From Anaerolineaceae bacterium (GTDB lineage: Bacteria; Chloroflexota; Anaerolineae; Anaerolineales; Anaerolineaceae): a stretch of 64,000 nucleotides of DNA. The translations under genes were made by a program, and so were the position numbers. Shown in pieces: positions 8,507 to 42,652 of this stretch (position 1 is its first letter; each line of letters starts with the position of its first letter). Location: assembly GCA_002702705.1 (NCBI GenBank), contig PABH01000063.1, forward strand, positions 1 through 64,000. The letters run 5' to 3'. The notes under the pieces were generated by a model. It searched no databases, was not told the origin of the DNA, and was given only the letters and a program-made list of their open reading frames with translations.

Positions 8507-8701
8507 ATGGATACCTGCGATGTTTGATAAAGAGGAAATCAATTAATCTACTTTGATTGTCCATTTTTATCATTGTTCGCAGTGGTTCATAAGTGTTGTC
8601 TATCCTAAATCGTGAAGCAAATTGTCACAAAGGCGATAAATGTAGATAACCAGACTTATTTTCAAAAATTTCTTTTCCCCCATAGATTTAATTTTCTTTT
8701 C

Positions 8702-9250: not shown

Positions 9251-9252
9251 GC

Positions 9253-10680: not shown

Positions 10681-10690
10681 TATTTATCTC

Positions 10691-11233
10691 CTAATGCCAA
10701 TGCAACTTCTCGTCTTTAATTTCAGGGATTCGACCTTGAGCTAATTCAGCAAGGACGTGAAAGATGACATCAGCATCCGGCGGGCAGCCAGGCACATGCA
10801 GGTCAACTTTGACCACTTCGCTTACTGCGCGTACATTGGTGGGTTTACAAAGTTCCGGGTCATCCGGAATTTTTCCACTATCATCGGTGCTTTCTGTTTC
10901 AACATAAGCTCTCCGCAGGGTTTCTTCGATTGTGAAGAAATTTCTCATGGCAGGCACACCACCAAATACGGCACAATCACCCAGTGCAACCAGGTATTTA
11001 CATCGGGAGCGCATTTGTTTGGCAACAGCTTCGTTGGCGGTGTTATTGATACCGCCCTCCAGAATGCCAACGTCTACACCGTCTTCATCGGGGTGTTTAA
11101 GATCAGTAATTGGTGTGGCACGCAGGTCCGCCAGTTCAAGGACCTGTAAAATTCTCTCGTCAATGTCTAATAGTGACATATGACAGCCTGCACATCCTGC
11201 CAACCAATCTGAAGCAACTTTTGGTTTACTCAT
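10691..11233 (-). CDS. hoxY: [NiFe] hydrogenase small subunit, HoxY-like
   Basis: 180 residues carrying only the proximal [4Fe-4S] cluster: GCAGCH (Cys14/Cys17), GDC (near 87) and PGCPPD (near 150). Short one-cluster small subunits like this belong to soluble group 3 enzymes (HoxY, HydS) rather than membrane hydrogenases with three clusters. There is no Tat signal. It passes electrons from the Ni-Fe site to the NuoG-like subunit encoded 34 nt upstream. Confidence 0.94.
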   Translation of the reverse strand: MSKPKVASDWLAGCAGCHMSLLDIDERILQVLELADLRATPITDLKHPDEDGVDVGILEGGINNTANEAVAKQMRSRCKYLVALGDCAVFGGVPAMRNFFTIEETLRRAYVETESTDDSGKIPDDPELCKPTNVRAVSEVVKVDLHVPGCPPDADVIFHVLAELAQGRIPEIKDEKLHWH

Positions 11234-23188: not shown

Positions 23189-24142
23189 TTATGGTTCTGG
23201 TTTCCAAGGGAATTCTGAGGAGACGATTTGTGGCGGATTTAACCAGGCCAATATTCCGGTTGTTTTTCTCTTCTGAGGAGTGATTTTATCGAATCCGACC
23301 AGAAAAACATTTACACAGATTAAGAAAGCCCCAACCCATTGATTTACGGTTAATCGATCTCCTAGCCAGATATAAGCTAACCCGATTGTAACAACCAACT
23401 CTCCTAACCCTAATAAAGCTGTTTGTAAACCACCCAGGTGTTTGACCCCCATAAATAGGGTGATTCTTGATAAAAAAGTAAAAAAAGCCATCGCAAGTAA
23501 AGGCCAATAAGGTGTGCCTGAAGGCGGCAATGAGCGATCACCGATGAGGTAGGCAATAATCACCGTTGCACTCATGGCGATTAATGTATATAAGGTGACT
23601 GTGGGGGCTGGCACATCCACCAATATCCTTTGATTAATAATAAGATGCAGCGCGTATAATAAGGAAGCACCAAACATCATCAAAATACCACCCATATCCA
23701 CGCTGTTTCCACTTAAATCGAGCAGCAGATAAACCCCCGGAATACTAAGTGCAAGTCGAAAAATGGTGATTTTTGATATAGGAGACCGGTCTAAAAACAG
23801 TAAAAACGCAACAAAAATGGGATAGAAGGAATAAATTAAATGGGCGACACTGGTATCTAGGCGTTGGATTGCATTGTAATATAATAAAGATCCCAAACCA
23901 TTGATCGTTCCTGCTAAAAAACAACCCGCCAATCCAATCGGATAGATATAAAAAAATTGCCGTTTAAAAACCGACATAATACTTAACAGCAGCAGCATGG
24001 CAATCGTGGTACGAAAGGCAGTGACAGCTAACGGTGCAAATCCGACATTGATGGATTGTTTTCCAAAAACAGGAATAACACCCAAAAATAATGCAGAGGC
24101 AAGCCCTGCTTGAATACCGGAGTTGCGAAAAAAAATTTTCAT
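23189..24142 (-). CDS. EamA/DMT-family transporter
   Basis: 317 residues with about ten hydrophobic segments arranged as two EamA repeats (about 5-145 and 155-290), the drug/metabolite transporter pattern. The start is 12 nt after the threonine synthase-receiver fusion. Since this family includes threonine/homoserine exporters such as RhtA, amino-acid efflux is a reasonable but unproven role. Last gene of the minus-strand signalling run. Confidence 0.85.
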   Translation of the reverse strand: MKIFFRNSGIQAGLASALFLGVIPVFGKQSINVGFAPLAVTAFRTTIAMLLLLSIMSVFKRQFFYIYPIGLAGCFLAGTINGLGSLLYYNAIQRLDTSVAHLIYSFYPIFVAFLLFLDRSPISKITIFRLALSIPGVYLLLDLSGNSVDMGGILMMFGASLLYALHLIINQRILVDVPAPTVTLYTLIAMSATVIIAYLIGDRSLPPSGTPYWPLLAMAFFTFLSRITLFMGVKHLGGLQTALLGLGELVVTIGLAYIWLGDRLTVNQWVGAFLICVNVFLVGFDKITPQKRKTTGILAWLNPPQIVSSEFPWKPEP

Positions 24143-24154
24143 AACAGTAAGTTC

Positions 24155-25840
24155 TTATAACAAAGAACGAATTTCATCCATTAATTCATCACTCATAAAA
24201 TCCCCTTTTTGCATCAGGGTTTGAATATGTCCATTTAACCGCTTCTTTTCCTCAGTTGTGAGCTCTTTTGCTGTAACCACAATGATGGGAATATCTGCTG
24301 TTTCCGGATCATTTTGTAAGGCATCCATGACCGCAAATCCATCTAATTCGGGCATCATTAAATCCAGAATAACCAGGTTCGGTTTTTCACGCATTACCAA
24401 ATCTATGCCTTTTCGGCCATTATCCGCTTCAAAAATAGTGTAACTGCCTTGTGATTGTAAAATCCTTCTGATTAGTCTTCTTACATCAGCATTATCGTCA
24501 ATGATTGCTATTCGCGGGAACCTGTCTGTAGCAACTTTACTTAGAGCCGACAATAAACCTTCTTCTGGCGTTTCTTCCATAGTCTGAGATGATAAGACAA
24601 CATTTCTTGCCCAACGGTCTCCAAGAATATTTCTTTCAATTGGCATTGTGTGGCCGGTACAATTCACGACGATGATTTCATCCGATTTAATCACTCCTGC
24701 TCGAATCAATTTTATTAAACCGGCGAATGCAACACCGGTCGCAGGTTCTACGGATATGCCTTCCATTTTGGCGAGAATATGCATCGTTCGGAAAGCTTCT
24801 TTATCACTCACATCTTCAAAAGTGCCCCCAAACGAATTTTTGATTCGATCCGATAAAATGGTATACGTTCTACCCGGATCTCCTGTTGCCAGGGTAGCGA
24901 TTAATGTGCGTGGTGATTGAATGGGAATGGCTGTATCTTTGTTTTGTTTCCAGGCATGCACCATCGGAGCACATCCTTCGGACTGAATTAGCCCAAACTT
25001 AGGCAAGGAACTAGTCATCCCTAGTTTTAATAGTTCTTCATACCCTTTCATTACCCCATACGGTCCTGGACCACCACTAACGGATTGGATATACCAATCG
25101 GGGGCTCGCCATGGTGCCGTAGGGTGTTGGGTGTTTGACGCAAAAGGTGGTCCCATGATTCCGGTTAATTGTTCCGCTATCTCGAACCCAACAGTCTTCA
25201 TTGCTTCAATAGTTGGAACATTCATGGCACCTGGATCACGATAAATATTTTTTTGTTTTGCAAATTCTTCAGCTACTTTTTTTGCCTGGTCATAAGAGCC
25301 GGTTACTTTGATAACTTGGGTTCCATATAAAGCAACTTCCCGCATTTTTGAGGCGGGAACAAGACTGGTTAAAAACGCATATAGTTTAATTCCTGCTCTA
25401 GCGGCATAAGCAGAATAAGAAATTGCAACATTACCGGTTGACGCGATAACTAACTCGCTGATTCCCGCTTCTTTAAGCGCGGCAATCGTGACAGCAGCTT
25501 GGCGATCTTTAAATGAGGCCGTTGGTCCTTGGCGTTCGTCTTTGATAAAAATATTCGGACAACCCAACATCATGCCTAAATTTGTTGCTTTGATCAGTGG
25601 CGTTCCACCTTCACCTAAGGAAAGAGCCGGATTTGGGCTTCGGATTGGAAGAAGTTCGCGATATCGCCACAAATCAAATGGACGGCCTGGTAAGGACAAT
25701 GGTAAAGAATGTGCTAAGTGTTTATAGTCATATTCAGCTTCTTTCCAGGTTCCACCGCATTTCGGACAGATTAATTGTGTTGGTAAAAACGGGGTAGGGT
25801 GCCCACAATCGATACATTTAACAATAAAATGAGCTGACAT
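24155..25840 (-). CDS. Threonine synthase fused to a response-regulator receiver domain
   Basis: 561 residues. Residues 1-30 form a zinc ribbon (Cys9, Cys12, Cys25, Cys28); residues about 70-420 are a PLP fold-type II threonine synthase with the PLP lysine Lys111 in GPTASFKD, STGN phosphate loop and a late GHT segment. Residues 443-561 are a receiver domain with acidic pair Asp448/Asp449, phosphoacceptor Asp493 (LDLMMPELDG), Thr523 and Lys545. The reading frame is continuous. It begins directly after the hybrid kinase stop. A phosphorylation-controlled threonine synthase is suggested; the catalytic part could have another substrate. Confidence 0.9.
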   Translation of the reverse strand: MSAHFIVKCIDCGHPTPFLPTQLICPKCGGTWKEAEYDYKHLAHSLPLSLPGRPFDLWRYRELLPIRSPNPALSLGEGGTPLIKATNLGMMLGCPNIFIKDERQGPTASFKDRQAAVTIAALKEAGISELVIASTGNVAISYSAYAARAGIKLYAFLTSLVPASKMREVALYGTQVIKVTGSYDQAKKVAEEFAKQKNIYRDPGAMNVPTIEAMKTVGFEIAEQLTGIMGPPFASNTQHPTAPWRAPDWYIQSVSGGPGPYGVMKGYEELLKLGMTSSLPKFGLIQSEGCAPMVHAWKQNKDTAIPIQSPRTLIATLATGDPGRTYTILSDRIKNSFGGTFEDVSDKEAFRTMHILAKMEGISVEPATGVAFAGLIKLIRAGVIKSDEIIVVNCTGHTMPIERNILGDRWARNVVLSSQTMEETPEEGLLSALSKVATDRFPRIAIIDDNADVRRLIRRILQSQGSYTIFEADNGRKGIDLVMREKPNLVILDLMMPELDGFAVMDALQNDPETADIPIIVVTAKELTTEEKKRLNGHIQTLMQKGDFMSDELMDEIRSLL

Positions 25841-28800: not shown

Positions 28801-30805
28801 CCCCGCGATTAATGTCGGGAATATATAACCCATGTGTAATGGATTGAAGCATTTCTTCAAATGAATTAGCTAAGGATAGTTGGTGAGAAGCATTGTATAG
28901 ATTTTCTGTTTCGTCAAGCGAGACTTGAAGCTGATCGACCAAATCTTCACGAATATATGTATTACTTAAAGCATCTGCTGCAACGCGTAAAAAGCCAATT
29001 TCTTCATTTCGCCAAGTTCGTTCAGTAGTAACGTTTTCAAAAGCAATAATACTGGGTGTTGACGATTTACCATGAACTGCCAATAAGAGAATGGATTGAG
29101 TTTCTCTGGCTTCCATCCACTTATTCAAAGGTTCATTCAATTTATCATCCTTTTGTATGGAGACCCAACCACTTTCTTGTAATTGACTTATCCATTCGGT
29201 AAATAACGCAATAGGAACATTATTCACGGGATGGGGGCGAAAGCTGGACTTACAAGCAGGCGCAATCCATTCAACGGTTTGATGCCAATAAGGAGATACA
29301 CTTTCTTCACGGATTTGAGCAAAGTAAATTCGTTCTGATTCAGATGCGAGTCCTAAATAATCCAGTACCTCTCTGATTGAATTTGAACCAAATTTAGTTA
29401 AAGTTGCGACAGCCAAAGCAACGTTTGATTGGTATTTTTCACGTGATTCAATTGAAGAAAGGGCGGTACGGATTTCCTGAAAGAGACCAGCATTTTCTAA
29501 TGCCGACGCGGTTTGGAGGGCTATGGTAGTAATTAAGTCTGTATCAGAAGGAGAAAATGCATTCTTTATTTCGTAATTCATTAATATGATGACCCCCTTG
29601 ATTGATTTTCCAACTGGCATTGGAATTGCCAATAATGTTTGTGGGGTCTTGTCTAATAAAAATAAACCATATTGTTGAATTTGGTTTTCAATATCTTCTG
29701 AAAAATTTAACGTCATCTGTTTTTCAAAAACTTCCTCAGGAATTTGATGTATGTAATCCATATCATCAACCTGAATGTATCTTCCGTTTTCAAAAACCAA
29801 AGGAAAACTGAGTTTTTTTGAATTTTGTTCCACAAAAGCAATCGTTAACTTATGATAATCAACAATTGTATCCAGCATTTCCTTTGTTAATTTGAAAATA
29901 TCTTCGGAATCTGTATAGCGGGAGAGCTGTTGTCCAAATTCATTCAACGAAGCTAGATCTTTGTTCAGTTCCAAAATCTCTTGCTGTGCCTTTACCCTTT
30001 CTGACAACTCTTTTTGGGCAGCATTGTACAATTGAGCATTTTCGATTGCTAGTGAAAGTTGTTTTGCTACTTCTTCTACTAGTATGCTATCGTCTTCTGT
30101 CCATTTTCTGGATGGATCATAATCAATTAATTCTAGAACACCATAACCATCCTCCTGCATATTTACAGGGATGGCAATTACGGCAGGACTATTTTCAGAC
30201 CCGGCTTGGGTTACTAACCGGTTAATTTTCATTGCTTGAAGACCTGCATCCGTAGTTGGAACGGTCGAATGATGAAAATCGATATTTCCTATTTCTTTAA
30301 ATTCCTGGTTAACCTGGTTGATTAATTCAGTAATTTGGATGTTCGATTCATTTTTATTTGATGGTGTTTCTGTTACATATGGTTCAACAAAATTCTCAGA
30401 AAGAACTTGGACAAAACCATAAAAACCAGCTTTCGTTCCATTATGCGCAGGTGAACTAAAAATTTGAAAACGGGTGGGTACAAAAACGCCTTCAGCTGTT
30501 TGGAAATAAACGTCAATTTCAGCCGGATAAATTCCCTTAAGAAATAAATTTCGTAATCTTTCACCGGATTGTGGGGTAATTGCATATTGGAAGATGGATT
30601 TCCCAGAAAAGTTTTCGTTATTTATCCCTAAACAATCCGTTACTTCAGAGGAAACTTTTGTGTAAAAACCATCTTCATCTGAAGACCAATTCCAAGAAGG
30701 CAAACTATTTTGAAAAGTGTTTTCTGGGATTGGCGTTTCTTCTTTGATTTGCAGATCACTAAACAAATTGTCAAGCCGGTGTTGCAATTGTTTCTTTTTC
30801 GACAT
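25841..30805 (-). CDS. Hybrid histidine kinase: PAS, six GAF-like domains, HisKA, HATPase, two receivers
   Basis: About 1654 residues. Order: PAS-like (about 30-150), six GAF-like domains (about 160-1120), HisKA with MSHELRTP (phosphoacceptor His near 1164), HATPase_c (NAAKFTEKG, TGGTGLGLS), then two receivers (LDIMMPGRDG and LDLMMPGKDG). No membrane segment, so it is cytoplasmic and may receive signals from the membrane GAF proteins of the same locus. ATG at 30805 has a gaggagg site; upstream ATG at 30916 lies deep inside parA and is rejected. It overlaps the parA end by 35 nt. Confidence 0.92.
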   Translation of the reverse strand: MSKKKQLQHRLDNLFSDLQIKEETPIPENTFQNSLPSWNWSSDEDGFYTKVSSEVTDCLGINNENFSGKSIFQYAITPQSGERLRNLFLKGIYPAEIDVYFQTAEGVFVPTRFQIFSSPAHNGTKAGFYGFVQVLSENFVEPYVTETPSNKNESNIQITELINQVNQEFKEIGNIDFHHSTVPTTDAGLQAMKINRLVTQAGSENSPAVIAIPVNMQEDGYGVLELIDYDPSRKWTEDDSILVEEVAKQLSLAIENAQLYNAAQKELSERVKAQQEILELNKDLASLNEFGQQLSRYTDSEDIFKLTKEMLDTIVDYHKLTIAFVEQNSKKLSFPLVFENGRYIQVDDMDYIHQIPEEVFEKQMTLNFSEDIENQIQQYGLFLLDKTPQTLLAIPMPVGKSIKGVIILMNYEIKNAFSPSDTDLITTIALQTASALENAGLFQEIRTALSSIESREKYQSNVALAVATLTKFGSNSIREVLDYLGLASESERIYFAQIREESVSPYWHQTVEWIAPACKSSFRPHPVNNVPIALFTEWISQLQESGWVSIQKDDKLNEPLNKWMEARETQSILLLAVHGKSSTPSIIAFENVTTERTWRNEEIGFLRVAADALSNTYIREDLVDQLQVSLDETENLYNASHQLSLANSFEEMLQSITHGLYIPDINRGVLVLFESDSQFEVTHMQVYANWHNGNGTPPPFVNAEYDVAIYKDIFTPQMPSYYDDILNAGLSKNMMEIFKNQNIRSMAVLPLWSGKRRIGAVLLQSENKHTFTNREKRTFPPLIDQMATTVENLRLFGQTQEALNETEQLYKISGGISLAKNNQDLVDLVSQNILPAAADRVALMMIRTSGADETPTSLEIVGYFNKKSIQNPQQDFFSINVFPALKTLETQERLLIEDVHRDPLDEISKRTLIDMNIGGGIVLPLYSGERLVGILSVFSEKRFYISEDEYRMLKIAANGIAVAVERQLLLENTQQRALELQTAAEIARDTTSTLSLAELLDGIVKLISERFRFHHTAIYLVDEDKRFAEIQEATGEAGLMLKLKQQKYAIGSKNIIGTVTASGEPVTIHDVRDNPLFDKSQLLPDTESEIGLPLKIGAQVIGVLDIHSTRKNAFNQAEITVLQILTDQIAVAIENAKSYEISQQAIEDMREVDRIKSQFLANMSHELRTPLNSIIGFSRVILKGIDGPINDTQEQDLNAIYNSGQHLLRLINDILDLSKIEAGKMQLQMTESNVPDLVNSVMSTAIGLIKDKPIKLEYDIPEDLPTIMVDQTRIRQVLLNFLSNAAKFTEKGQILVKAKENISPSGEKEVMFTVTDSGPGIAEKDRIKLFMPFSQVDDSPTRKTGGTGLGLSICRSFIEMHNGRIGLLTSEVGKGSTFFFTIPLIEEESQEYSHQEFDNSNSPHKAILSIDDDKQITSLYERFLSNHGYQVISLNESKKAVETAKKVNPFAITLDIMMPGRDGWQIIQELKNDPETKNIPVIICSILEEEEKGFNLGATDYLIKPFLQEDLLNAINRLNFDGQIHKILIIDDDEGDQRLIEKILNEHKNFELTFAKDGDEGLNLLKSNLPDAVVLDLMMPGKDGFDVLDEIHSHQTFAHLPVIILTGADLSPEQYNRLTTSGQQLLLKGLLGEKELLTTLENTLRVSNQRIKEG

Positions 30806-31556
30806 ATTGCAGAACCTCCTCGGCGAGCTGCCTATATTGAATTGATGCGCGGCATTTTGGAGAATGGAAGATGATTGGCAGCCCGGCGATGGCACTCTCA
30901 CGAATTTTTGTATCAATTTGTATAATTGTAGTTAATAATCCGGACTGAAATGAAGTACGTAAATGTTCAAATAACGTGCGGTGAATTTTATTCCTTTTAT
31001 CAAACATAGTTAATAAAATTCGGTAGGTTAAGGATGGATTATTTTGAGTCCGAATTCTTCGGATTAATCCCATCATATTTCTGAGTGCATAAATGGAGAA
31101 ATATTCCGCCTGAGTAGGAAGAATTAGTAAATTGGTTGCAGTTAATGCGTTGAGCGTTAAAGCACCTAAAAAAGGTGGGCAATCTATAATGACCACATCA
31201 TAAATATCCTTTACATCATCAAGTGCAATTTTTAAAGTGTTTTCGTATCCTGGACGAGTGGGTAAATAACGTTCAGCAAACCCCATCTCATTATTTGATG
31301 GTAGAAGATCTAAATTCGGTATGCCTGTTTCCACCTTGACTTCATGGATGGGAACATTTTCCATTAAAACATTGATGGAGGTTTTTCGACTTTGTTGTGG
31401 ATCAACTCCCATTGACAATGTTAAGTTGGCTTGTGAATCAAGATCAATCATCAATACCTTTTTTTCTTTTTCAACAAATGCAGCACTCAAGGCTAACGCA
31501 GTGGTTGTTTTAGCGACTCCACCTTTTTCATTGGATATGGCAATTACATAACTCAT
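30771..31556 (-). CDS. ParA/Soj-family ATPase
   Basis: 261 residues with the deviant Walker A KGGVAKTT (about 11-18), MIDLDSQANLT switch and IIDCPPFLG Walker B. No N-terminal DNA-binding domain and no ParB gene alongside, so it is an orphan ParA, like those that position chemosensory arrays, carboxysomes or other cargo. It overlaps the upstream GAF protein by 4 nt (ATGA) and the downstream kinase by 35 nt, so it is embedded in the signalling operon and may position the receptor complex. Confidence 0.9.
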   Translation of the reverse strand: MSYVIAISNEKGGVAKTTTALALSAAFVEKEKKVLMIDLDSQANLTLSMGVDPQQSRKTSINVLMENVPIHEVKVETGIPNLDLLPSNNEMGFAERYLPTRPGYENTLKIALDDVKDIYDVVIIDCPPFLGALTLNALTATNLLILPTQAEYFSIYALRNMMGLIRRIRTQNNPSLTYRILLTMFDKRNKIHRTLFEHLRTSFQSGLLTTIIQIDTKIRESAIAGLPIIFHSPKCRASIQYRQLAEEVLQYVEKETIATPA

Positions 31557-34486
31557 CCTAGTTCACTCCGATCCCCGTTTATAATCTCCTGAGCGCGATC
31601 AGATCCGTTATGTCCATTCCCTGAATTATGGTCGTTTGAGGGATTTTCAGTTTGGATCTGTTGGTCTTTTAAAACAATTTGTGCTTTCGATGTCCCTAGT
31701 GCTTTTTTAAGCTCCATCATTGCGATCTGAACCATTTCTTGTGGATTATTGGTTGAACGAATCTTACTCGTAATTTCCACAACTTTTTGTTCTCGATTGG
31801 CACGTCGCATCGTTTGTTCAAATAAACGAGCGTTTTCTAAAGCTAGTCCCACATTTTCTGCGATGGTTTGAACCGAATTTAGCTCTTCTTCACTCCAATA
31901 TTGCTTCACAGCTTTTTGGTCCTTTACTTTAATTACGCCGATTGTCTGGCCGCGTAAAGTAATCGGAATGACCATTTGAATTTCATCATCTGTTCCACCA
32001 TTATTATTAACAACCATCGGTGATCCAGTTTTTAATACATTTGAAATTTCATCTGATACTTGTCGTTCAGCATATTTAATGCCCTGGTCGGTGAATATAA
32101 TACTGCGTTCTTGATCGGCTTCCGTTGTTTTTTGCCATTCTTGTTGCAAATATTGACGGTGGATACGTTCGGTTGCTTCCAAAGCAGAACGGGTTTCATT
32201 GTATAACCGGTTACTATAAATCGCGATTGCGACCTGATCCGCTAATGTTCTAAAGAGTTCAATATCTTCATCAGTAAAGGCATTTGATTCAGTGGACTGA
32301 ACATCCAAAGCACCAATGATTTCGTCATTGGCAATCAATGGCAAGGCCATTTCCGAACGGGTGAGTGGTAAATCAGGGTTGTTAAAATATGTAGCGTCCT
32401 GACCAACATCGGTGGCAATTCTAGCTTCACCCATACCAGTAGCATAACCAACGATACCAACCTTACCTATGCGCAATTTGTGGTTTCGGGCTAACATACG
32501 CTGTCCGCCTTCGGAATTTGCTGCCCGCAATACTGCATATTCGCGTTGTTCATCCAAAAGGAAAATACCAACATGATAAAAATTGAAACGTTCACTGATT
32601 GTTTTTGTGATATCGTTCAGAAATGTTTCCAACTCCTGCGAAGAAACAATACTTCGTGCCACTTCTGCAACGGTTCGTAATTGATAACCACGATAAGAAA
32701 GTGCTGTGTTTTGCAATTCTAATTCTTTTGTACGCTCAGCAACCCGATTTTCAAGCGATCCAATCGCTGCACGCAGCTGATCTGTCATAAGATTAAATGC
32801 CTGTCCTAATATACCAATTTCATCAGAAGAGGTGACTTCTGCTCGGGTTTCGAGTTTTCCCGCTGTAATATCATTGGCGGTTTCACTTAGTTTAATAATT
32901 GGCTGACTGAAAGACCTTGAGAAAATAGTTGCTAATAATCCAACCAATGCAGAAACGATTGCACCAATAATTATGAAGATATTTGCCTGATTTTTTGCTA
33001 TTTGCAATAGAATATTTTGTTCTTGTGCATAAACCAGGAACCAGGGTTGTGTATCAAGTTTTGTAATAATACCCGAATCTAAAATTGTAGAATCTTCTCC
33101 ACGGATATTGGCTGTAAAAAATTCCGTATTTAAGTATTGATCGATCGTTAATGCAAAATCATTTAAGTTAGATGACATTTTATCCATTGTCTTATTGGGA
33201 ATCCAATGAAACGCTCTTAAGGTTTTACTCGTCTCTTCATCTAACGTAACCAGCGTATGGTAAAGTTGGTTTGGAGAAATTGAATCGGCAATTCGTAAAT
33301 AATATTCATTAATTAAGATTGCATTTGAATTAGGACCAATCAGATTTGGATAGGTTTCTAATATTTTCTGTAAAACGAGAGCATCGTATTCCATTCGTAA
33401 TACACCGATCAAACGGTTTTGCGAATCGCGGATAGGCGCGGAAAAATATAAATAAGGATGATCAAATGTATCAAACCTTAATTCAGAAGCATAAGCTTGT
33501 TCGGTGCGAAGGGTCTGAACAAAATAGTCCGTTGATGCCTCAGAACCACCCAAACGGTGTGGATTGGTATCATAGATATTTTTCCCTTGGAGATTCAAAA
33601 TGCCATAATTAAACAAATATGAATAGTCTTTTAGTTTTAATGAATCAATCGTAGCTGATAATTCGTTATATACCTGGTCAGTAGGTTGGTTCGTGGAAGA
33701 GGCAAGAATATATTCAGCAAAAATTGGAAAAGCTGCTTCTTTTTCCAGTATTTCAAGATTACTTGAAATAAAATCGTCCACTTGTGAGGATACCTGTTTG
33801 GCAGCCAACCGTAATGTATTATTCCGTTGGTTTTCGAGTATGTTTTGGACAAAGGTGGATTGAATAACTGAAACCAATACCAAAGGAACCAGGGTAATGG
33901 CTAATGAAATAAAAACAAGTTTCAGGCGGATATTGGTTGTTAAAATACCATTTTGAACAAATGTGATAAAAACTAAAAGCACAATACCAAAAGCAATCGG
34001 TAAGATAACATTTACAGCTGGCATGGAGAGTTGCGGTAAGGGAGAGAGAAAACCTGAAACAGCTGCCACCGTGGCACTTAACATACCAATTGATATACCT
34101 GTATCTGATCGGCTATCCAATAAAGCTGTTGAGATAGCGATCGATAAGATTAGGTTCATTGCGGCTGAAGGTATTGCGGCGTTCTTAAATACGGCACTTA
34201 AGAGAATAAAAGAAATATTAACAGTGATTAATAATCCAAATATAAAAGGGTAATAATTATTCTTATTAATTTCTCTTAAAGATAAAGCACTGATAATACT
34301 GGTAACAGCCAAAAATGAAGATACTAATAACAACTGCCACTGAGGAGAAATTGCAGAAGCGATCAAAAATAAAATTACAGCAAGCGTAGCATTCACTAGA
34401 ATAATGAATGAAACAAGTTTTGCAAAACCGGTATTCCTTTGAATTTTATTTTGGTCGTATTGGGGTGAAATCTGGGCAATTTCCAT
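31553..34486 (-). CDS. Membrane sensor with Cache, HAMP and GAF domains, no output domain
   Basis: 977 residues. An N-terminal block of about seven membrane helices (about 20-215), an extracytoplasmic Cache-like region (about 225-500), another helix, HAMP (FSRSFSQPIIKLSETANDI), then two GAF domains (about 620-775 and 800-900). The C terminus is a partial GAF-like helix module and an Asn/Gly/His-rich tail (NSGNGHNG). No kinase, cyclase, methyl-accepting or receiver domain is present. It must signal through a partner, most simply the hybrid kinase encoded two genes on. Confidence 0.88.
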   Translation of the reverse strand: MEIAQISPQYDQNKIQRNTGFAKLVSFIILVNATLAVILFLIASAISPQWQLLLVSSFLAVTSIISALSLREINKNNYYPFIFGLLITVNISFILLSAVFKNAAIPSAAMNLILSIAISTALLDSRSDTGISIGMLSATVAAVSGFLSPLPQLSMPAVNVILPIAFGIVLLVFITFVQNGILTTNIRLKLVFISLAITLVPLVLVSVIQSTFVQNILENQRNNTLRLAAKQVSSQVDDFISSNLEILEKEAAFPIFAEYILASSTNQPTDQVYNELSATIDSLKLKDYSYLFNYGILNLQGKNIYDTNPHRLGGSEASTDYFVQTLRTEQAYASELRFDTFDHPYLYFSAPIRDSQNRLIGVLRMEYDALVLQKILETYPNLIGPNSNAILINEYYLRIADSISPNQLYHTLVTLDEETSKTLRAFHWIPNKTMDKMSSNLNDFALTIDQYLNTEFFTANIRGEDSTILDSGIITKLDTQPWFLVYAQEQNILLQIAKNQANIFIIIGAIVSALVGLLATIFSRSFSQPIIKLSETANDITAGKLETRAEVTSSDEIGILGQAFNLMTDQLRAAIGSLENRVAERTKELELQNTALSYRGYQLRTVAEVARSIVSSQELETFLNDITKTISERFNFYHVGIFLLDEQREYAVLRAANSEGGQRMLARNHKLRIGKVGIVGYATGMGEARIATDVGQDATYFNNPDLPLTRSEMALPLIANDEIIGALDVQSTESNAFTDEDIELFRTLADQVAIAIYSNRLYNETRSALEATERIHRQYLQQEWQKTTEADQERSIIFTDQGIKYAERQVSDEISNVLKTGSPMVVNNNGGTDDEIQMVIPITLRGQTIGVIKVKDQKAVKQYWSEEELNSVQTIAENVGLALENARLFEQTMRRANREQKVVEITSKIRSTNNPQEMVQIAMMELKKALGTSKAQIVLKDQQIQTENPSNDHNSGNGHNGSDRAQEIINGDRSELG

Positions 34487-34506
34487 AACTTAATAGCTCC
34501 AAAAGG

Positions 34507-36210
34507 CTAGGATTGGATTGAAGGATCTAGTTGAATAAGAACTTCGGATGCGCCGAGTGATTTTCCGAGTTCTTCAGCAGCGGTTTTTAATATGTGGTCA
34601 ATCTCTGTTGTTGCTCGCACTTTATTAGTAATCTGAGCAATTAATTTTTCTTGCACAGTACGATCTTCCAATTCTTCAACCAATCTTGCGTTTTCTAAGG
34701 CAATAGATAAACGAGCATTGATGGCATCTGATAATTGAAGTAAGTTTTCTGGAACATAAGGTAAATCTACATGAACATCAATTACGCCAATGACTTCATC
34801 CCTGATTTTTATTGGCATAGCTAACACACTGAATTTATCATCATTTTCTGCTGCATTTTTAACCAGACGGTTTTTATGTTTCATTACTTCAGTTATATCT
34901 TCATCAGGAGAATCTAGTGATTCCATTTGATTATCTTTCACGCTTAAAGAAAGAGTACGTTTTTTCTTAGATAAGAATGAGTCCCAATGCGCTGTAACCA
35001 GACCTGTATTTTTACTTTCTAGCTCCGTTATGTGTTGATTTAATTTGGAAATTTCTTGAAGATTATAAATGGTAGTTGCCAAACCATTTGCAATAAATTT
35101 AAGGGTTTCTAAACCTTCTTCATCAAAAGCATTTTCCTCTACACTTTGTACATCTAAAGCACCAATAATCTCATTTCGATAAATTAATGGTATAGCGACT
35201 TCTGAACGAGTATCAGGTAGAAGCGGGTTTTTGTAATGAACAGAATCTAACAAAACATTAGAAGCGATCCGCACTTCTCCTTTTTGGACTGCATAACCTA
35301 CAACACCTTCTCCAAAATGGAGTCTGTGTTTTCTAGCTAATAATTGCTGTCCTGCTTCACCAGTAGATGCTTTGATTACAGCAAACTCTTTATCTTCATC
35401 TACAACAAAAACACTGGCATGATAATAATTAAGGCGGCTACGGATGAGATTTACAGTAGCATTAAAAATTGTCTCAGGATTTCTTAATACAGCGAGTTCT
35501 TCTGTGATCTGGTTCGCAGTAATTAGTTGGTTTGCCTTTTTAGAGATGGTAAGGGTACGATCTTCGATTGCTGCTTCCAAATTTTTTCGTTCTTCTGAAA
35601 GTTGGGCTGTCGTTTGGTTAAGGCTGGTTAAGCTTGAACTGAGTCCAGTGAGCGCAGAAGATAGCGCACTAATAAAAATGGTTGCAATTAATGCAAAAGT
35701 GATCGAGCCAGTAAACCAGTCCATTCCATAACTTGAATTTGCTAGGATTTCTACCGGTGGGACAGGGATAAACCCAGTTGACATTCCCCAGCCAAAGACA
35801 GCTAAGGTGAGTAAACCGATCACTCCCGTTATTATTCCCACACGAAATCCGAATAAAAATGCAGCTAGAATGATAAAAGATAATAAAAAGATGCGGCCGT
35901 CTCCACTTAATCCGCTTTCCAATAAACCTGATACGGCTAGTAGATAAAATAATATTAGTAAAACGCTGGCTTTAAAAACGTAAGGTAATTTTTTTATAAA
36001 TGTAATAGCCAACAGCCCAATGTATGCAATGAAATAGATGCCAATTAATATCCAATCTCTTCGCAAAAACATGGTGTAGGCTGAGGCAAAGAGTAAAATT
36101 GTCCCAATAATTAATAGACCTGTAAATATGTTCTGCAATATGGAAGAGCGATAATACTTAATATCATGAACAATTACTTCTTGAGTGTTTGGGTTTGTTG
36201 ATACACTCAT
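34507..36210 (-). CDS. Membrane GAF-domain sensor without output domain
   Basis: 567 residues: about six membrane helices in residues 25-205, a coiled-coil linker with LTSLNQTTAQLSEERKNLE, a strong GAF domain (about 235-395, GEAGQQLLARKHRLHFGEGVVGYAV) and a second degenerate GAF (about 410-515), ending with the partial helix module shared by its neighbours (EKLIAQITNKVRATTEI). It lies 20 nt upstream of the Cache-HAMP sensor gene and is paralogous to the neighbouring 560-residue sensor. Confidence 0.87.
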   Translation of the reverse strand: MSVSTNPNTQEVIVHDIKYYRSSILQNIFTGLLIIGTILLFASAYTMFLRRDWILIGIYFIAYIGLLAITFIKKLPYVFKASVLLILFYLLAVSGLLESGLSGDGRIFLLSFIILAAFLFGFRVGIITGVIGLLTLAVFGWGMSTGFIPVPPVEILANSSYGMDWFTGSITFALIATIFISALSSALTGLSSSLTSLNQTTAQLSEERKNLEAAIEDRTLTISKKANQLITANQITEELAVLRNPETIFNATVNLIRSRLNYYHASVFVVDEDKEFAVIKASTGEAGQQLLARKHRLHFGEGVVGYAVQKGEVRIASNVLLDSVHYKNPLLPDTRSEVAIPLIYRNEIIGALDVQSVEENAFDEEGLETLKFIANGLATTIYNLQEISKLNQHITELESKNTGLVTAHWDSFLSKKKRTLSLSVKDNQMESLDSPDEDITEVMKHKNRLVKNAAENDDKFSVLAMPIKIRDEVIGVIDVHVDLPYVPENLLQLSDAINARLSIALENARLVEELEDRTVQEKLIAQITNKVRATTEIDHILKTAAEELGKSLGASEVLIQLDPSIQS

Positions 36211-36213
36211 TTC

Positions 36214-37896
36214 TTAAACCTCTTTCCCATTGGCTTTGGTTGAGTTCATCGGATCAACCTGAATGTTTACTTCAGAAACGTAAGGAATAGTGGAGATTTC
36301 TCTAATGGCAGTGCGAATGACATCTTCAATTCTGACGGCCTTAAAAAATTCTGTTGATAATTCATTGGCTTTTTGTTCGTGTGTAGCCTGGCGAATGGTT
36401 TGTTCCATTAGGCGCGTATTTTCCATAGCATACGCGATTTGATCTGATAACACATCAATTAAATCGGAATCATAATTTTCAATTTTTGATGCGGGTACAT
36501 CTATTTCAATTTCACCAATAACTTGGTTTCTTAATTTAATTGGAATTGAAATTGTTTTTAATACTTCATTGGAACTTACGATAGTATCGGAAGCCTGAAA
36601 TTGTGCTGTTAATTCTGAGTTTTCAATTAGAAAATCATTCCAAGTCCGTTTAATATACAATTGATTTAACATTTCAATTTCTTTAAGCGCTTGTTGGGAT
36701 TGTTGAAATAATTCAGCATTTTCTAGTGCAACAGCCAAAGAATTTGCGACATTTTGTAGAATCAAGATATCATCTTCATCGAAATCATTTTGTCGGTGTG
36801 ATTGAATGGTCATCGCACCCAAAACTCTTTCATTTTTTCCGACCAAAGGAATTGCCATTTCAGAGTGTGTAAATGGCAAATAGGGGTTATTAAAGTGAAC
36901 CGCATCCTCACCAACATCTAAAGCGATGCGGGATTGTTTTTTGCCAGTCGCCCACCCAATCATAGAAGGTCCATTCACTGCCAACTTGTGTTCTGCAGCT
37001 AACATTTTTTGTCCTTCTTCACCTGATCCGGCTTTTAATACAGCAAATTCGCCATAATCATCAATCAAGAAGATTCCAACATAATACAAATCAAAACTGG
37101 TTTTCACCATTTCGACTACTTTAATAATCAATTCATTACTATCAAGTGTTTTATTGATTTCTGCAGAAATTTCTGCAACGGTATGTAACTGGCGTAGACG
37201 GTCTTGTAAATTTTTGGTTTGTTTATCTACCTCAATTGCTAGTTTTGACCGTTCGCTATCCAACGCTTTTGAAAGATGAATTTGTTGTTTTGCGTTTTGG
37301 CTGTAATTGGTGAGAATTTGATTAATAGAACTTGATACTGCATATAACACCACAAATGTAAACAAAGCCCAAATAATCCAATTGATAGGTGCTAATGGGC
37401 TGGCTAATGAGTTAAACGAATTATCCGGATAAGGAAATAAATTATTTACAAAACCAAAACCGGAGAGTGCGATGATTACAACACTAATAACGGTATAAAA
37501 GACTGCACTTCGGAAATTTATTAGTATCGCTGTAAAGATGGGAGCAGAAATCAATACAAGGCTGACAGTACCATTTACTCCTAAAACCTGTAATAAGACA
37601 ATTGATGCTACTGATAATAATACGGCAATTAAATGAGTCCGTTTTTTATAGGAAATGAAACGAAGTAATAAAATCGTATGAATAACAACCAGATAAATTA
37701 TTAAGACTGTATTTAGTTGAGGGTAAGTTCGATTTAACTTCAAAATTGCCGACAAAATCACCCCGATCCAAGCCACGGATGCGGAAATTAATAAAATAAA
37801 TTGAAGAGCTTTTTCTTGCCAGATTGAAATAACATCATGTTCTTTTAAATAGGATGGTGTTTTGTTTGGATTAAAGTAATTTAAAATCGCACCCAT
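36214..37896 (-). CDS. Membrane GAF-domain sensor without output domain (paralogue)
   Basis: 560 residues with the same plan as its downstream neighbour: about six membrane helices (about 25-200), coiled coil, one well-conserved GAF (about 235-390, GSGEEGQKMLAAEHKLAV) and a reduced second GAF, then the shared C-terminal module (EQKANELSTEFFKAVRIEDV). The start shares one base with the preceding stop (TAATG), and the next gene starts 3 nt after its stop, so translation is coupled along the array. Confidence 0.87.
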   Translation of the reverse strand: MGAILNYFNPNKTPSYLKEHDVISIWQEKALQFILLISASVAWIGVILSAILKLNRTYPQLNTVLIIYLVVIHTILLLRFISYKKRTHLIAVLLSVASIVLLQVLGVNGTVSLVLISAPIFTAILINFRSAVFYTVISVVIIALSGFGFVNNLFPYPDNSFNSLASPLAPINWIIWALFTFVVLYAVSSSINQILTNYSQNAKQQIHLSKALDSERSKLAIEVDKQTKNLQDRLRQLHTVAEISAEINKTLDSNELIIKVVEMVKTSFDLYYVGIFLIDDYGEFAVLKAGSGEEGQKMLAAEHKLAVNGPSMIGWATGKKQSRIALDVGEDAVHFNNPYLPFTHSEMAIPLVGKNERVLGAMTIQSHRQNDFDEDDILILQNVANSLAVALENAELFQQSQQALKEIEMLNQLYIKRTWNDFLIENSELTAQFQASDTIVSSNEVLKTISIPIKLRNQVIGEIEIDVPASKIENYDSDLIDVLSDQIAYAMENTRLMEQTIRQATHEQKANELSTEFFKAVRIEDVIRTAIREISTIPYVSEVNIQVDPMNSTKANGKEV

Positions 37897-40800
37897 TAAT
37901 TATCTCCATGACCATTCCGGCCGTTGTGACCATTATTACTCACTGGTTGTGCTGTTTCTTTCTCATTCGGTAAAAAGACTTTTATCTTTGTTGAATATGC
38001 ACCCAACATTTTACTGATTTCATTTACAGATGTTTCTAAAACAGATTGCATATTTGGTGATTGACGGATTTTATTTGCTGCTTCGAACATCTGCCTTTGG
38101 CGGGCTGCCTGGGTGTTGATTTGGTAAATTAATTCAATTACCGATAATGTAGAAGCAAGATTCGCGCCTAAGGTCACCATAATTTCTAAGTCGGTTTCAT
38201 CAAAAGCAGCAGCTTCTTTTGCTTCAACATTTAACACACCATATAAACGATCACCAAATAAAATAGGAACAGCAAGTTCAGATCGATTGTTTGGACTCAA
38301 GAAAACATATCTTTCATCATTAAATGTGTCGTTAATCTTTACTGCTTTTTTGTAAAGGGCAACTTCACCTATCACACCTTTACCAAATGCGATTCGTCGA
38401 TTTGTGAGTTCTTGTTCATTTCCTGCTACGGCTTGCAGTGTAAGGTATTCATTATTTGTATTCACAAAAACAGATACTTCATAATTTGGCATTGAAGTGT
38501 GAATACTATTAACAATATTTTGATAGGCTTCTTCTGTATTGGTAGCAGTAGCTGCAGCCCGTGAAATTTGATGGGCAAATCTATGTTTACTTAAATTTTC
38601 CTCGGTTCGAGCAAATAAACGAGCAGTTAAAATAGCGGTTGCTAATTGATCTGCGAGAATTTGCAAGGTTTGAATGTCCTCTTCCAAAAAGGCATCTTTT
38701 TCTGTACTTTGAACATCAATAGCTCCGATTACTTCATTCCGCACAATTAGTGGAATTGCTAATTCAGCTTGCGTCTCCGGTAACAAAGGATTGGGATAAT
38801 AATTGATACTTGCAGTTACGTCATTATTAACAACAGGTTTTCCGGTTGCTGTTGCAGCACCAACTGTGGATTGGGACCCAACCGCTAATTTATGTTTGGC
38901 TTCTTTCATTTTTTTGCCGGCTTCGCCCGTAGATTCTTCTAATACGGCATATTCCCCTAATGGATCAATCAAGAAAATAGAGGCATGGTAAAAACCAAAC
39001 CTTTCACGAACCAAATTTACCGCATTGGTTAAGAATGAACGCAGTTCCAAAGTTCCAGATGTATCACGAGCAATTTCAGCAGCTGTTTTAAGTTGTTGTG
39101 CACGGTTTTGTGCAATATCTTCGGCCAATTTTAAGTCAGTTATATCCTGGCTAAATCCGAAAATCCCAATTGGTTGTCCTTTTTCAGAGGTCATTGGAAG
39201 TTTGTAATGTTGAATCCAGCGTTTGCCATTGCCTTTTAGTGAGGTCTGTTCAATTTCACCAATAACCTCTTGATTTTCATTAATGATTTTTTGTTCTTCC
39301 AGATAGGTTTTATTACCAATTTCTGCGCCAAAAAGCTCATTGTCCGTTTTATTAACAAACTGTTTTCGATCCAGTTGCATAAAGTCTGCATAAGAATCGC
39401 TGATTCTGATATAGTGACCTTGATTATCTTTAAATGTCACAAAGTCAGGAATATTGTCTAATAAAGCATTAAATAAATATTGGTCCAATTCAAATTGAGT
39501 TAATGAGGTTGTTAATTCGTTCTTTTGATTGGCATTGTGGATAATAATACTGAGCGAGGGAGTGATACTTTTAAGTAAGTCTAAATCTTTTTCTGTAAAT
39601 CGATTTTCTTTATGGGAATCTTGGATTACTATGGCACCAATGGTCTGGTTTTGAATGATTAAGGGTACCCCCATCCAGGATTTCGCGATTTTTCCGATTA
39701 TTTTTGAACCTAACTTTATTGCTTTTTCTTCAACATTTTCCACAAGTAATAAGGGTTTTTGATTTTGAATGACATAAGAAGTTAAACCTTCTCCTATCGG
39801 GTAAGGTGCCACATCCAATAATTCCTGGTTTTCATAAATATAAGGAATTTCGATGGTTTCTTGTTCCTTGTTATAAAGCGCAAATAAGAGATTGATATCA
39901 TCACCAAGAGTAGAAGAAAGAATTTTGTGGGTAGAGTGAAAAATTAATTGGAGATCATCTTCTATTCCGATTGATTCAATAAGTGTAGCCAGAATTTCAA
40001 GGTTGTTTTTTCTGGTTTCGAGCAAATTAAATTGAATTAATTTTTCGATCGCATTACCGGTTACTTCTGCAAGATTAACAAATGGGTCTAAAACGACATT
40101 ATTAAATTCTTTTAATTCTCGTGAACCAAGGGCAATCAATTTAAATGGTTTCCCGGATTTATTTATAGGGAGTAAAGCTGCCGAGATACAACCTCGCCGA
40201 TTTAAAAACGAAAATAAATTTTTAAAATTGACTTCATTTTCAAGATCATTACTGATAATAACAAGTTGATCTTCCAATAAATTTAAGTTCTGATCCTCTA
40301 ATGGAATTGCAATATTTGAAAGATTTGTTTGAAACTTTTTGCCTTTACGATCGCTGAACTTTACTAAACGGAGATGATGAGGAGAGATTTCAAAAATAGC
40401 ACTAACATAGTTGGTTTTATCCAGTGCCTGGTAAACACTTTCGATGATTTCTTCTTCATCGGTTAAAGTCGATATTTGTTTTGTCGTTTGATATAAAATA
40501 TTCGTTGACGTAAGATCAAACTGGGTCGATTCGAGTAAGGATAAGTTTCGAATACCACTTCCAATTTGTCCAGCTAATGCTTCAAGAGCTTTTACAAACT
40601 CCGTGTCAAAAACATTGATCTGATCAGATTGAATATCTAAAACACCTAGAATTTCATCTCCTACCCGAATTGGAACTTGAACCAATGCTTTGGAGTTTGG
40701 TATTAATATTCCCTTATAATGAAATACATCTTCTTGATCCACATTATTAGAAACGTAACTTTGTTTATTTTTAATTACGTTTCCAATGATTGAATTAACA

Positions 40801-42227
40801 TTTAATGGCACAAAAAAATCGTCAAGATAGGATTCATCGAAAGAGGGGTTTTTAAACGTATTTACATATCCCCTGAGATTTAATTGATTAAACACTTTGT
40901 CAACTAAATACACCCCAGTGTAGTGGAAACCAAAATGGTCCGTGATGAGATTAACTGCATTGTTAATAATCTCGTCCTGAGAAGCCGCTGAGGTTGCCAA
41001 TTGCGCAATTTGAGAAGCTGTATTCATTTGTTGCGTACGGGCAACCACTTTCTCTTCCAGGGATCTGTACAATGCGGAAAGCTGTTCAACCATTTGATTA
41101 AAGGCATAAGCCAACAATCCGATTTCATCACGGCGGTTAACCTTTGCTCGATGATGCCATTCTCCTTGGGCAAACCTGTTTGCACTTTCAGACAAACGAA
41201 TCAAAGGATTAATAATTTGGGATGCACCGTAATAAACGATCATACCGCTGATTAGAATTAAATTTAGAAATATAAATAAATTAAAAGGACCAATGGAATT
41301 TACTTGGGCCAGTGCAATACTCTCAGGAAGGGTAACTAGTAAGCTTGTATTCAACCCATCAAGTGGATAAGAATACAAAAAATAAGATTTGTTATTGAGA
41401 GAAAAAGTTCTTCGTTTAATATTTTTGGGATTGATATTTTTTATTTCGGTTTGTTGGTCAATTGAAAGAGGTATTAGTTCATATCCATTTAATTCAGGAT
41501 TGAAAGAAATTAGCAAATCATTTTTTAATTGATAAAAAGCTTTTGAATTGGGATAATAGTTTGCAATGGTTTCAAATATTTGATTGGGTAAGGTGTTTCG
41601 AGCAATACCCACTAAAAAAACAGGTGATTTTTCACTATCAAACTTTACGGGAGAAACAGACAATTCGATTAAATCTTCAGGGAATAATTCTTTTAAATCA
41701 TAAACCAAGTAGTTTACTGGTTGGTTTGCGTTAATCGCTTGCCGGATTGATGGTATATCGAATAAATTGATATCATTCCATCGTATATTTGACGAAAGGA
41801 TGATTGTGCCTTCATCATTCATTAGGAATGTTTGGTCAAATTCAGAATCCCTTTGACTATTATTAATCAAAGTGTCAAAGGAATCCAAAATTCTTTCTCT
41901 ATAAAAAACTTGTTCGTCTGCCGGAGTATCCGGATTTGAAATTGTTTTAATGTAAGTTAAAAAATTGTTGTCATCCGCTACACTGGTTATCGCTTTTGTT
42001 TTTTCTTCAGCATATTGATCAATTTGATGTCCAATGGCGTTTCCCGTATTTATTAATTGACTAGTGGTCTGGTCTTTGATTAGTGAAGTGGAGCGAAAGT
42101 AGGTTATTCCACCAATTAAGCCCACAGGAATAATGGTCAAAAGCAGCATAACTAAAATGATAGACCTTGTTAAACTACGATTAAATTGTGGTTTTTTGGT
42201 TTGGAATTGTGAACTTACATCCGCCAT
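37896..42227 (-). CDS. Large membrane sensor: Cache, HAMP, five GAF and one PAS, no output domain
   Basis: About 1443 residues. Helix near 20-40, extracytoplasmic Cache-like domain (about 45-300), second helix, HAMP (QIINPLIRLSESANRFAQG), three GAF domains, a PAS domain (DNIPDFVTFKDNQGHYIRISD, ending ITDLKLAE), then two more GAF domains and the shared C-terminal helix module plus a tail NNGHNGRNGHGDN. No kinase or other effector domain. ATG at 42227 has an aggaga site and lies 14 nt after the upstream receiver gene, so it is preferred over the ATG at 42254. Confidence 0.88.
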   Translation of the reverse strand: MADVSSQFQTKKPQFNRSLTRSIILVMLLLTIIPVGLIGGITYFRSTSLIKDQTTSQLINTGNAIGHQIDQYAEEKTKAITSVADDNNFLTYIKTISNPDTPADEQVFYRERILDSFDTLINNSQRDSEFDQTFLMNDEGTIILSSNIRWNDINLFDIPSIRQAINANQPVNYLVYDLKELFPEDLIELSVSPVKFDSEKSPVFLVGIARNTLPNQIFETIANYYPNSKAFYQLKNDLLISFNPELNGYELIPLSIDQQTEIKNINPKNIKRRTFSLNNKSYFLYSYPLDGLNTSLLVTLPESIALAQVNSIGPFNLFIFLNLILISGMIVYYGASQIINPLIRLSESANRFAQGEWHHRAKVNRRDEIGLLAYAFNQMVEQLSALYRSLEEKVVARTQQMNTASQIAQLATSAASQDEIINNAVNLITDHFGFHYTGVYLVDKVFNQLNLRGYVNTFKNPSFDESYLDDFFVPLNVNSIIGNVIKNKQSYVSNNVDQEDVFHYKGILIPNSKALVQVPIRVGDEILGVLDIQSDQINVFDTEFVKALEALAGQIGSGIRNLSLLESTQFDLTSTNILYQTTKQISTLTDEEEIIESVYQALDKTNYVSAIFEISPHHLRLVKFSDRKGKKFQTNLSNIAIPLEDQNLNLLEDQLVIISNDLENEVNFKNLFSFLNRRGCISAALLPINKSGKPFKLIALGSRELKEFNNVVLDPFVNLAEVTGNAIEKLIQFNLLETRKNNLEILATLIESIGIEDDLQLIFHSTHKILSSTLGDDINLLFALYNKEQETIEIPYIYENQELLDVAPYPIGEGLTSYVIQNQKPLLLVENVEEKAIKLGSKIIGKIAKSWMGVPLIIQNQTIGAIVIQDSHKENRFTEKDLDLLKSITPSLSIIIHNANQKNELTTSLTQFELDQYLFNALLDNIPDFVTFKDNQGHYIRISDSYADFMQLDRKQFVNKTDNELFGAEIGNKTYLEEQKIINENQEVIGEIEQTSLKGNGKRWIQHYKLPMTSEKGQPIGIFGFSQDITDLKLAEDIAQNRAQQLKTAAEIARDTSGTLELRSFLTNAVNLVRERFGFYHASIFLIDPLGEYAVLEESTGEAGKKMKEAKHKLAVGSQSTVGAATATGKPVVNNDVTASINYYPNPLLPETQAELAIPLIVRNEVIGAIDVQSTEKDAFLEEDIQTLQILADQLATAILTARLFARTEENLSKHRFAHQISRAAATATNTEEAYQNIVNSIHTSMPNYEVSVFVNTNNEYLTLQAVAGNEQELTNRRIAFGKGVIGEVALYKKAVKINDTFNDERYVFLSPNNRSELAVPILFGDRLYGVLNVEAKEAAAFDETDLEIMVTLGANLASTLSVIELIYQINTQAARQRQMFEAANKIRQSPNMQSVLETSVNEISKMLGAYSTKIKVFLPNEKETAQPVSNNGHNGRNGHGDN

Positions 42228-42241
42228 TTTTTCTCCTGTTA

Positions 42242-42652
42242 TTACAATTCCCAAACGGGGGTTCCGGAGAGAATCCGGTTAATTTGGTCGGGAAATCGAT
42301 CTGGATCGAGAGGTTTGCCGATAAATCCATCAAAACCGGCATTCTTTGCTTTATTGATTTGTGCTTGATCGGCTTCTGCTGTCACTGCAATGACAGGAAT
42401 AGTTCTTAGTTTTTCGGATTCGCGGATTTTTTTTAAGGCACTATAACCATCTTCATAAGGCAATCGAATATCGAGTAATATTAAATCCAATTTTGGTAAA
42501 GTGTCTGCGTACTCCACAACTTCATACCCTGAAGTTTTCCATTCACAATGAATTCCTAAAAACCCTAATAACCTTGCAATTAGGACAAAATTAGAAACGT
42601 TATCTTCAACGACAAGTACAGAGATGTCTTTAGTTCCCGATGTTGATTGCAT
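42242..42652 (-). CDS. Stand-alone receiver-domain protein (CheY-like)
   Basis: 136 residues: VVEDN acidic pocket, LLDIRLPYEDG phosphoacceptor Asp, TAEAD switch Thr and GKPLD lysine. No effector domain. It lies 28 nt after the other receiver gene and 14 nt before the large sensor; it probably works as a phospho-shuttle or allosteric switch in the hybrid-kinase phosphorelay of this locus. Confidence 0.9.
   Translation of the reverse strand: MQSTSGTKDISVLVVEDNVSNFVLIARLLGFLGIHCEWKTSGYEVVEYADTLPKLDLILLDIRLPYEDGYSALKKIRESEKLRTIPVIAVTAEADQAQINKAKNAGFDGFIGKPLDPDRFPDQINRILSGTPVWEL

Follow-up and report, generated by a model that had tools for sequence, protein, structure and literature searches.

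A pyridoxal phosphate enzyme fused to a receiver domain, beside a hybrid histidine kinase, in Anaerolineaceae and other Chloroflexota

The window analyzed here, a stretch of 64,000 nucleotides from an Anaerolineaceae bacterium (assembly GCA_002702705.1, contig PABH01000063.1, positions 1 to 64,000 of the forward strand), encodes a protein, PALP-REC, in which a pyridoxal phosphate (PLP) enzyme related to threonine synthases is fused to a response regulator receiver domain. The protein combines an intact PLP enzyme that has a conserved pocket of its own with an intact receiver, and its gene lies behind a complete hybrid histidine kinase and, in most relatives, ahead of an EamA-family transporter. 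We consider it probable that PALP-REC is a response regulator with a PLP enzyme as its output, phosphorylated by the neighboring kinase and acting on an amino-acid-type substrate other than O-phosphohomoserine, with EamA moving either its product or its substrate. The gene cluster is best read as placing an enzyme, together with transport, under direct aspartyl-phosphate control.

PALP-REC is a single open reading frame (ORF) of 561 amino acids (aa) in which Pfam recognizes both PALP and Response_reg domains (Table 1). An earlier note on this DNA, made from its letters alone, had described an in-frame fusion of a PLP enzyme and a receiver, and both the fusion and the residues it assigned (the zinc ribbon, Lys111, Asp493, Thr523, and Lys545) are borne out. 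The receiver signature residues Asp448/449, Asp493, Thr523, and Lys545 are all present. We collected a near-full-length set of 119 distinct homologs, excluding sequences that contain X, that do not span approximately residues 12-550, or that are repeated. Across 86 distinct full-length homologs, the four zinc cysteines, Lys111, Asp449, Asp493, and Lys545 are conserved in every sequence (86/86), while at position 523, 84 sequences have T and 2 have S, and at position 448, 68 have D and 18 have E. K111, D493, and K545 are still invariant in a deeper alignment of 53 rows. Such invariance would not be expected had either the enzyme or the receiver side lost its function.

The earlier note had proposed a search for the fusion in other Anaerolineae, and it is found there repeatedly. 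A whole-protein query (E <= 1e-90) recovered it in 36/101 sampled genomes of the family. In a second genome collection, which was scanned across all phyla with exact 8-residue patterns only, 79 fusion loci were found among the best 80 of 84, and as far as the titles tell, these come from Anaerolineae, other Chloroflexi, or genera of that group; the other genome searches centered on Chloroflexota. A frameshift or assembly error, which the note had named as a possible undoing of its claim, is not the case, since the fusion recurs in these 36 family genomes and 79 other loci.

Within a phylum sample of 400 genomes, 42 (counted by hand) contain sequence that matches the PALP part at 51% identity or higher. 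They fall in eleven coded families (f1-f4, f6, f7, f11-f13, f24, and f35), with f24 and f35 outside the class of the window. All PALP-part matches at this level (56/56) are fused, being located in open frames no shorter than 549 aa; the next best matches reach at most 40% identity, and most of their frames measure about 400-480 aa. Because every match of at least 51% is in a long frame and the rest are at 40% or below, this enzyme branch is seen only as a fusion. The many homologs, the invariant residues, and the fused-only clade rule out an artefact or a chance fusion. In the window's own genus, only 2/8 genomes carry the fusion, which indicates that it has also been lost or transferred. Dissemination by plasmids was considered and rejected: a tblastn search against 72,556 plasmid records gave a match in 1,022 of them, none with one place covering 80% of the fusion.

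The earlier note identified the enzyme as a threonine synthase, and this identity is probably wrong. The genome of the window (G000) has two further threonine-synthase-like genes, C51 and C22. C51 lies directly behind an aspartokinase-like gene (named from its sequence) and scores above the TIGR00260 cut-off, at 215 bits versus 167.1. The fusion falls under all NCBIfam threonine-synthase cut-offs, with 159.1 against 167.1 for TIGR00260 and 237.8 against 303 for PRK08197, and it is likewise below those of PRK05638, PRK08329, PRK06381, and PRK06450. It is also below the cysteate synthase cut-off of TIGR03844 (118.6 versus 324.9), with a score there that exceeds those of six paralogs (53-79). Phylogenetic analysis of 69 rows placed the fusion enzymes in one clade of 33 rows with support of 100/100; ThrC proteins form another clade (100/97), and enzymes of the C22 and PRK08197 types also lie outside the fusion clade. 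L207, a stand-alone protein of 32% identity, is PRK08197-like and lies outside the 33-row clade; in the residue comparison it goes with the PRK group, if aligned. The neighbors of the fusion are signaling genes and EamA, with no threonine-pathway linkage, while the aspartokinase adjoins the other copy. The note had named a second stand-alone thrC together with a loss of catalytic residues as what would speak against it: a stand-alone thrC is indeed present, and the residues of PLP chemistry are kept.

A comparison of pocket residues points the same way. N154, S155, N157, R160, N188, and N191 of the Thermus enzyme (Tth), which we take to bind the substrate phosphate, a role for which a literature search found no paper, are identical in 9/9 rows compared (5 ThrC and 4 C51); residue roles in Thermus threonine synthase were reportedly treated by Omi et al. 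in 2003. In the fusion rows (103 + 20, of which at least one is a fragment and one contains an unknown residue), different residues occupy these columns: S155 and N188 are replaced by G throughout, R160 mostly gives way to S, C, or A, and N157 is retained in about 4% of the first group of 103. The fusion has its own invariant residues, namely R103, Q114, A115, K187, G204, M214, Q252, the loop S255-G-G-x-G-P-x-G262, and H397-T398, of which H397 is also found in ThrC. The same contrast appears against five solved threonine synthases aligned. This pattern of scores, phylogeny, and residues suggests that the fused enzyme is probably not a threonine synthase.

The other copy, C22 (L002:1432-2679), is a stand-alone threonine-synthase-like protein found in 99/101 family genomes. 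It scores above the TIGR00260 cut-off, yet has T at the R160 position in 30/30 rows and D at the N188 position. Judged from these residues, C22 is probably annotated as threonine synthase and is possibly something else.

An AlphaFold model built on the 53-row alignment has a mean predicted local distance difference test score (pLDDT) of 84.2 and a predicted template modeling score (pTM) of 0.71. The PALP part is confident and the receiver fair, while the linker and the last 14 residues fall below 50. The best VIA-align match of the enzyme part is Arabidopsis threonine synthase 2c2b_A (Z 43.9, root-mean-square deviation (rmsd) 2.3, 388 aligned), followed by other threonine synthases and the cysteate synthase CapA2 at Z 37-39. 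The closest solved structures by sequence are threonine synthases too.

The placement of the gene given in the earlier note, right behind a hybrid kinase and before EamA, holds in the window and in most relatives. The kinase ORF abuts the fusion, ending at 25841, and on the downstream side 12 bases separate the fusion from EamA. Neighborhoods were compared in 84 loci with at least 1.5 kilobases upstream and 1.4 kilobases downstream, counted as distinct by protein sequence rather than by checked species. A hybrid kinase lies directly upstream in 79/84, and its H-box is kept in all of these (79/79). Downstream, EamA follows in 63/84 and a stand-alone receiver in 13/84; two loci (L142 and L156) have the kinase with neither EamA nor a receiver directly after the fusion, and in L144 a GAF-STAS protein precedes EamA. 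A further, divergent pair of histidine kinases with GAF domains, about 530 and 880 aa long, recurs on the opposite strand beyond EamA in L046, L054, L078, and others, located at about 12-16 kilobases in these loci.

Counting the kinase by its C-terminal half (E <= 1e-125) in the 101 family genomes gave 30 with both fusion and kinase, 6 with the fusion alone, 5 with the kinase alone, and 60 with neither (cross-read by hand). Two of the six fusion-only genomes, G014 and G022, have an adjacent kinase that scores below the threshold. In G008 (L218), fusion and EamA are both absent, and about 150 bases after the kinase come hisS, g21007, CBS, and g18862, which also flank the cluster of the window. 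The absence of both at once links the enzyme to the transporter and indicates that the kinase can persist alone, at least for a time. In G095, there is no fusion in the kilobase after the kinase, up to the contig end.

PALP-REC belongs to a run of ten same-strand genes, from 43058 down to 23189, separated by gaps of at most 29 bases or overlapping. In order, these encode two receivers, a HAMP-GAF-PAS protein, two MASE11-GAF proteins, a dCache-HAMP-GAF protein, a ParA-like ATPase, the hybrid kinase, PALP-REC, and EamA. The order of Cache sensor, ParA, and kinase is kept in most loci compared. None of the ten genes has a DNA-binding Pfam domain, and PALP-REC is the sole part of the operon that resembles an output. 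The region 31553-42254 holds four large GAF sensors with no kinase or other output domain, beside the ParA-like ATPase; ParA may position them as an array of input subunits. Five HPt matches were found in the genome of the window; each is part of an open frame of 567-1021 aa, and the fusion cluster contains none. We rejected a phosphorelay via a stand-alone HPt, because HPt domains occur only within larger proteins elsewhere in the genome, and for the same reason prefer, as a presumption, direct phosphotransfer from kinase to fusion.

Table 1. Features of the PALP-REC protein and of the genes around it in the window
Feature	Position	Strand	Remarks
PALP-REC fusion ORF	24155..25840	minus	561 aa, ATG start, single frame, no internal stop
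Zinc-ribbon cysteines C9, C12, C25, C28	25757..25816	minus	Kept in 86/86
PALP domain, aa 74-396, fold type II PLP enzyme	24653..25621	minus	PF00291, 214.8 bits, above gathering score
PLP lysine K111 codon (in SFKDR)	25508..25510	minus	86/86; aligns with Tth K61
Fusion-specific loop S255-G-G-x-G-P-x-G262	25055..25078	minus	Threonine synthases have GNxGN at the same place
Linker, aa 410-430, low model confidence	24551..24613	minus	pLDDT <50 at 414-427
Receiver domain, aa 444-556	24173..24511	minus	Pfam PF00072, 71.5 bits, above gathering score
Phospho-acceptor Asp493 codon	24362..24364	minus	86/86
Hybrid histidine kinase, 1691 aa	25841..30916	minus	GAF repeats, HisKA, HATPase_c, two receivers; presumed phosphodonor
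EamA-family transporter	23189..24142	minus	Pfam; downstream of the fusion in 63/84 loci
ParA-like ATPase	30771..31556	minus	Same operon
dCache-HAMP-GAF membrane sensor without output domain	31553..34486	minus	Pfam
Two MASE11-GAF membrane sensors without output domain	34507-36210, 36214-37896	minus	Pfam
HAMP-GAF-PAS sensor without kinase domain	37896..42254	minus	Pfam
Two stand-alone receivers, head of the gene run	42242-42652, 42681-43058	minus	

A second, deeper copy of the fusion, at about 51-52% identity and followed by a stand-alone receiver, is present in many genomes of the sister family f2. A stand-alone PALP enzyme comes after the fusion in 6/20 of the deep loci listed (L137, L150, L152, L153, L156, and L198), where the operon runs kinase, PALP-REC, mostly a receiver, and then the stand-alone PALP. 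The two of these enzymes that were scanned, from L152 and L198, score above the PRK08197 cut-off (580 and 563 versus 303). In L137, the PALP-REC at 8675-10801 (minus strand) has a second receiver-like stretch at its C-terminus.

In the mechanism that we propose, the operon's GAF, Cache, and MASE11 sensors would inform the hybrid kinase, which would phosphorylate Asp493 of the fusion. The receiver, held on a flexible linker, may then switch the activity of the PALP domain by altering how this domain assembles or whether it is open or closed. The enzyme would convert its amino-acid-type substrate, one different from O-phosphohomoserine, and EamA would transport the product or substrate of that reaction, giving control from signal to metabolite without a transcription step. 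A bolder version, to which we give little credence, is a closed circuit in which the amino-acid-type molecule made by PALP-REC, a signal or a stress solute, would be released by EamA and feed back on the Cache/GAF sensors, making the whole a phylum-wide communication or stress system. An amino-acid-sensing Cache motif was considered as support for such a feedback loop and set aside, as the dCache protein of the window lacks a loose Y-x4-R-x-aromatic-aromatic pattern, a rough one taken in part from PMC10104139. The pattern occurs at some place in the first 700 residues of 10/96 similar ORFs, which is a weak test.

Several observations weigh against a kinase-controlled enzyme with a substrate of its own. 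AlphaFold gives no confident domain arrangement, so the docking of the receiver is unreadable in the model and its coupling to the enzyme is putative. Five of the 84 loci (L104, L105, L112, L140, and L141) have neither kinase nor transporter beside the fusion, and the kinase occurs without the fusion in G008 and G095 and may thus have other outputs. A strong separate TIGR00260 match (E <= 1e-60) is present in 25/36 fusion-bearing genomes, and the remaining 11 (cross-read by hand), among them G043 (99% complete) and G060 (100%), have no other match at this level, so threonine synthase activity is possible there; these 11 do have C22-type or other matches. Together with the closeness of solved threonine synthases both by sequence and by model, they are what would favor PALP-REC as a true threonine synthase, a second, phosphorylation-controlled copy with a rebuilt phosphate pocket, with EamA exporting threonine or homoserine. 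We regard this as unlikely, given that positions invariant in all nine ThrC and C51 rows are altered in the fusion clade, which contrasts here with all five solved sequences aligned, that the TIGR00260 and PRK08197 scores fall short, that most fusion genomes have a strong separate match and nearly all family genomes a C22-type protein, and that the gene sits among signaling rather than threonine genes.

Equally doubtful is a reversal of roles in which the PALP domain is the sensor, with a PLP-bound amino acid tuning the receiver or kinase and little turnover of its own. Archaeal receiver proteins whose partner domain is possibly an input are discussed in PMC5847659, the rest of the operon is all signaling, and in 6/20 deep loci a further PALP enzyme, not fused, lies downstream. 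An enzyme nevertheless fits better, with the catalytic lysine and PLP-site residues invariant and EamA tied to the fusion. The receiver might instead be a phosphate sink or a kinase docking module that exerts no control over the enzyme, as the predicted disorder of the linker would allow and as the two further stand-alone receivers in the operon and two in the kinase might suggest. Fusion is strict in every clade member seen despite stand-alone receivers in the same operons, which suggests that covalent coupling matters and makes this the least probable of the three alternatives. Our preferred reading thus stays with PALP-REC as a response regulator whose output is the PLP enzyme.

The response regulators studied so far mostly control transcription, motility, or second messengers. 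A PLP enzyme as the only recognizable output, kept in eleven coded families of a single phylum with a kinase, is a tractable case of direct control from signal to metabolite, and it suggests that these bacteria switch an amino-acid-type reaction directly by signaling and not via gene expression. It also means that a protein of these genomes may resemble threonine synthase without being one. The system is open to testing because named strains carry the fusion, by title Bellilinea caldifistulae GOMI-1, Anaerolinea thermolimosa IMO-1, Thermanaerothrix daxensis GNS-1, and Levilinea saccharolytica KIBI-1.

Among known enzymes, PALP-REC resembles threonine synthase (TIGR00260 and PRK08197; PDB 2c2b, 2d1f, 1uim, and 1v7c) in fold, PLP lysine, ASTGN loop, and a zinc ribbon of the PRK08197 type. 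It differs in its scores below cut-off, in other invariant residues on the substrate side, in the added receiver, and in forming a separate clade. Plant threonine synthase is allosterically activated by S-adenosylmethionine. This plant enzyme (2c2b and 1e5x), solved with S-adenosylmethionine, is the closest match to the model of the fusion and, unlike the fusion, is regulated by a ligand and has no receiver. Cysteate synthase (TIGR03844; CapA2, 9k3c) is a PALP enzyme with a similar N-terminal part and the third match of the model (Z 38.8, rmsd 2.5, 366 aligned), but the fusion is far under its cut-off. The PLP enzyme LqsA of Legionella has a different PLP fold and is not known to be fused to a receiver. 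The Lqs system (see PMC3376566) places LqsA next to LqsR/LqsS, i.e., a kinase and a response regulator, and the LqsA product is a signal.

Response regulators in which a receiver is fused to a metabolic enzyme are known and, in archaea, are of narrow distribution, according to PMC5847659 (section 14). A literature search by titles and the beginnings of abstracts, which did not cover the output-domain table of the main review, found no receiver fusion of threonine synthase or PALP. Enzyme-output response regulators are already known, and the literature searched in this way showed none with a PALP output. Of the features that define such regulators, PALP-REC has a complete receiver, an enzyme domain in frame, and a kinase alongside (79/84 loci). 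Like the enzyme-output regulators in PMC5847659, it is an in-frame fusion of receiver and enzyme with presumed environmental control of the enzyme, and unlike them, it has an output of the PALP fold, a C-terminal receiver, a distribution over eleven coded families, and a kinase alongside.
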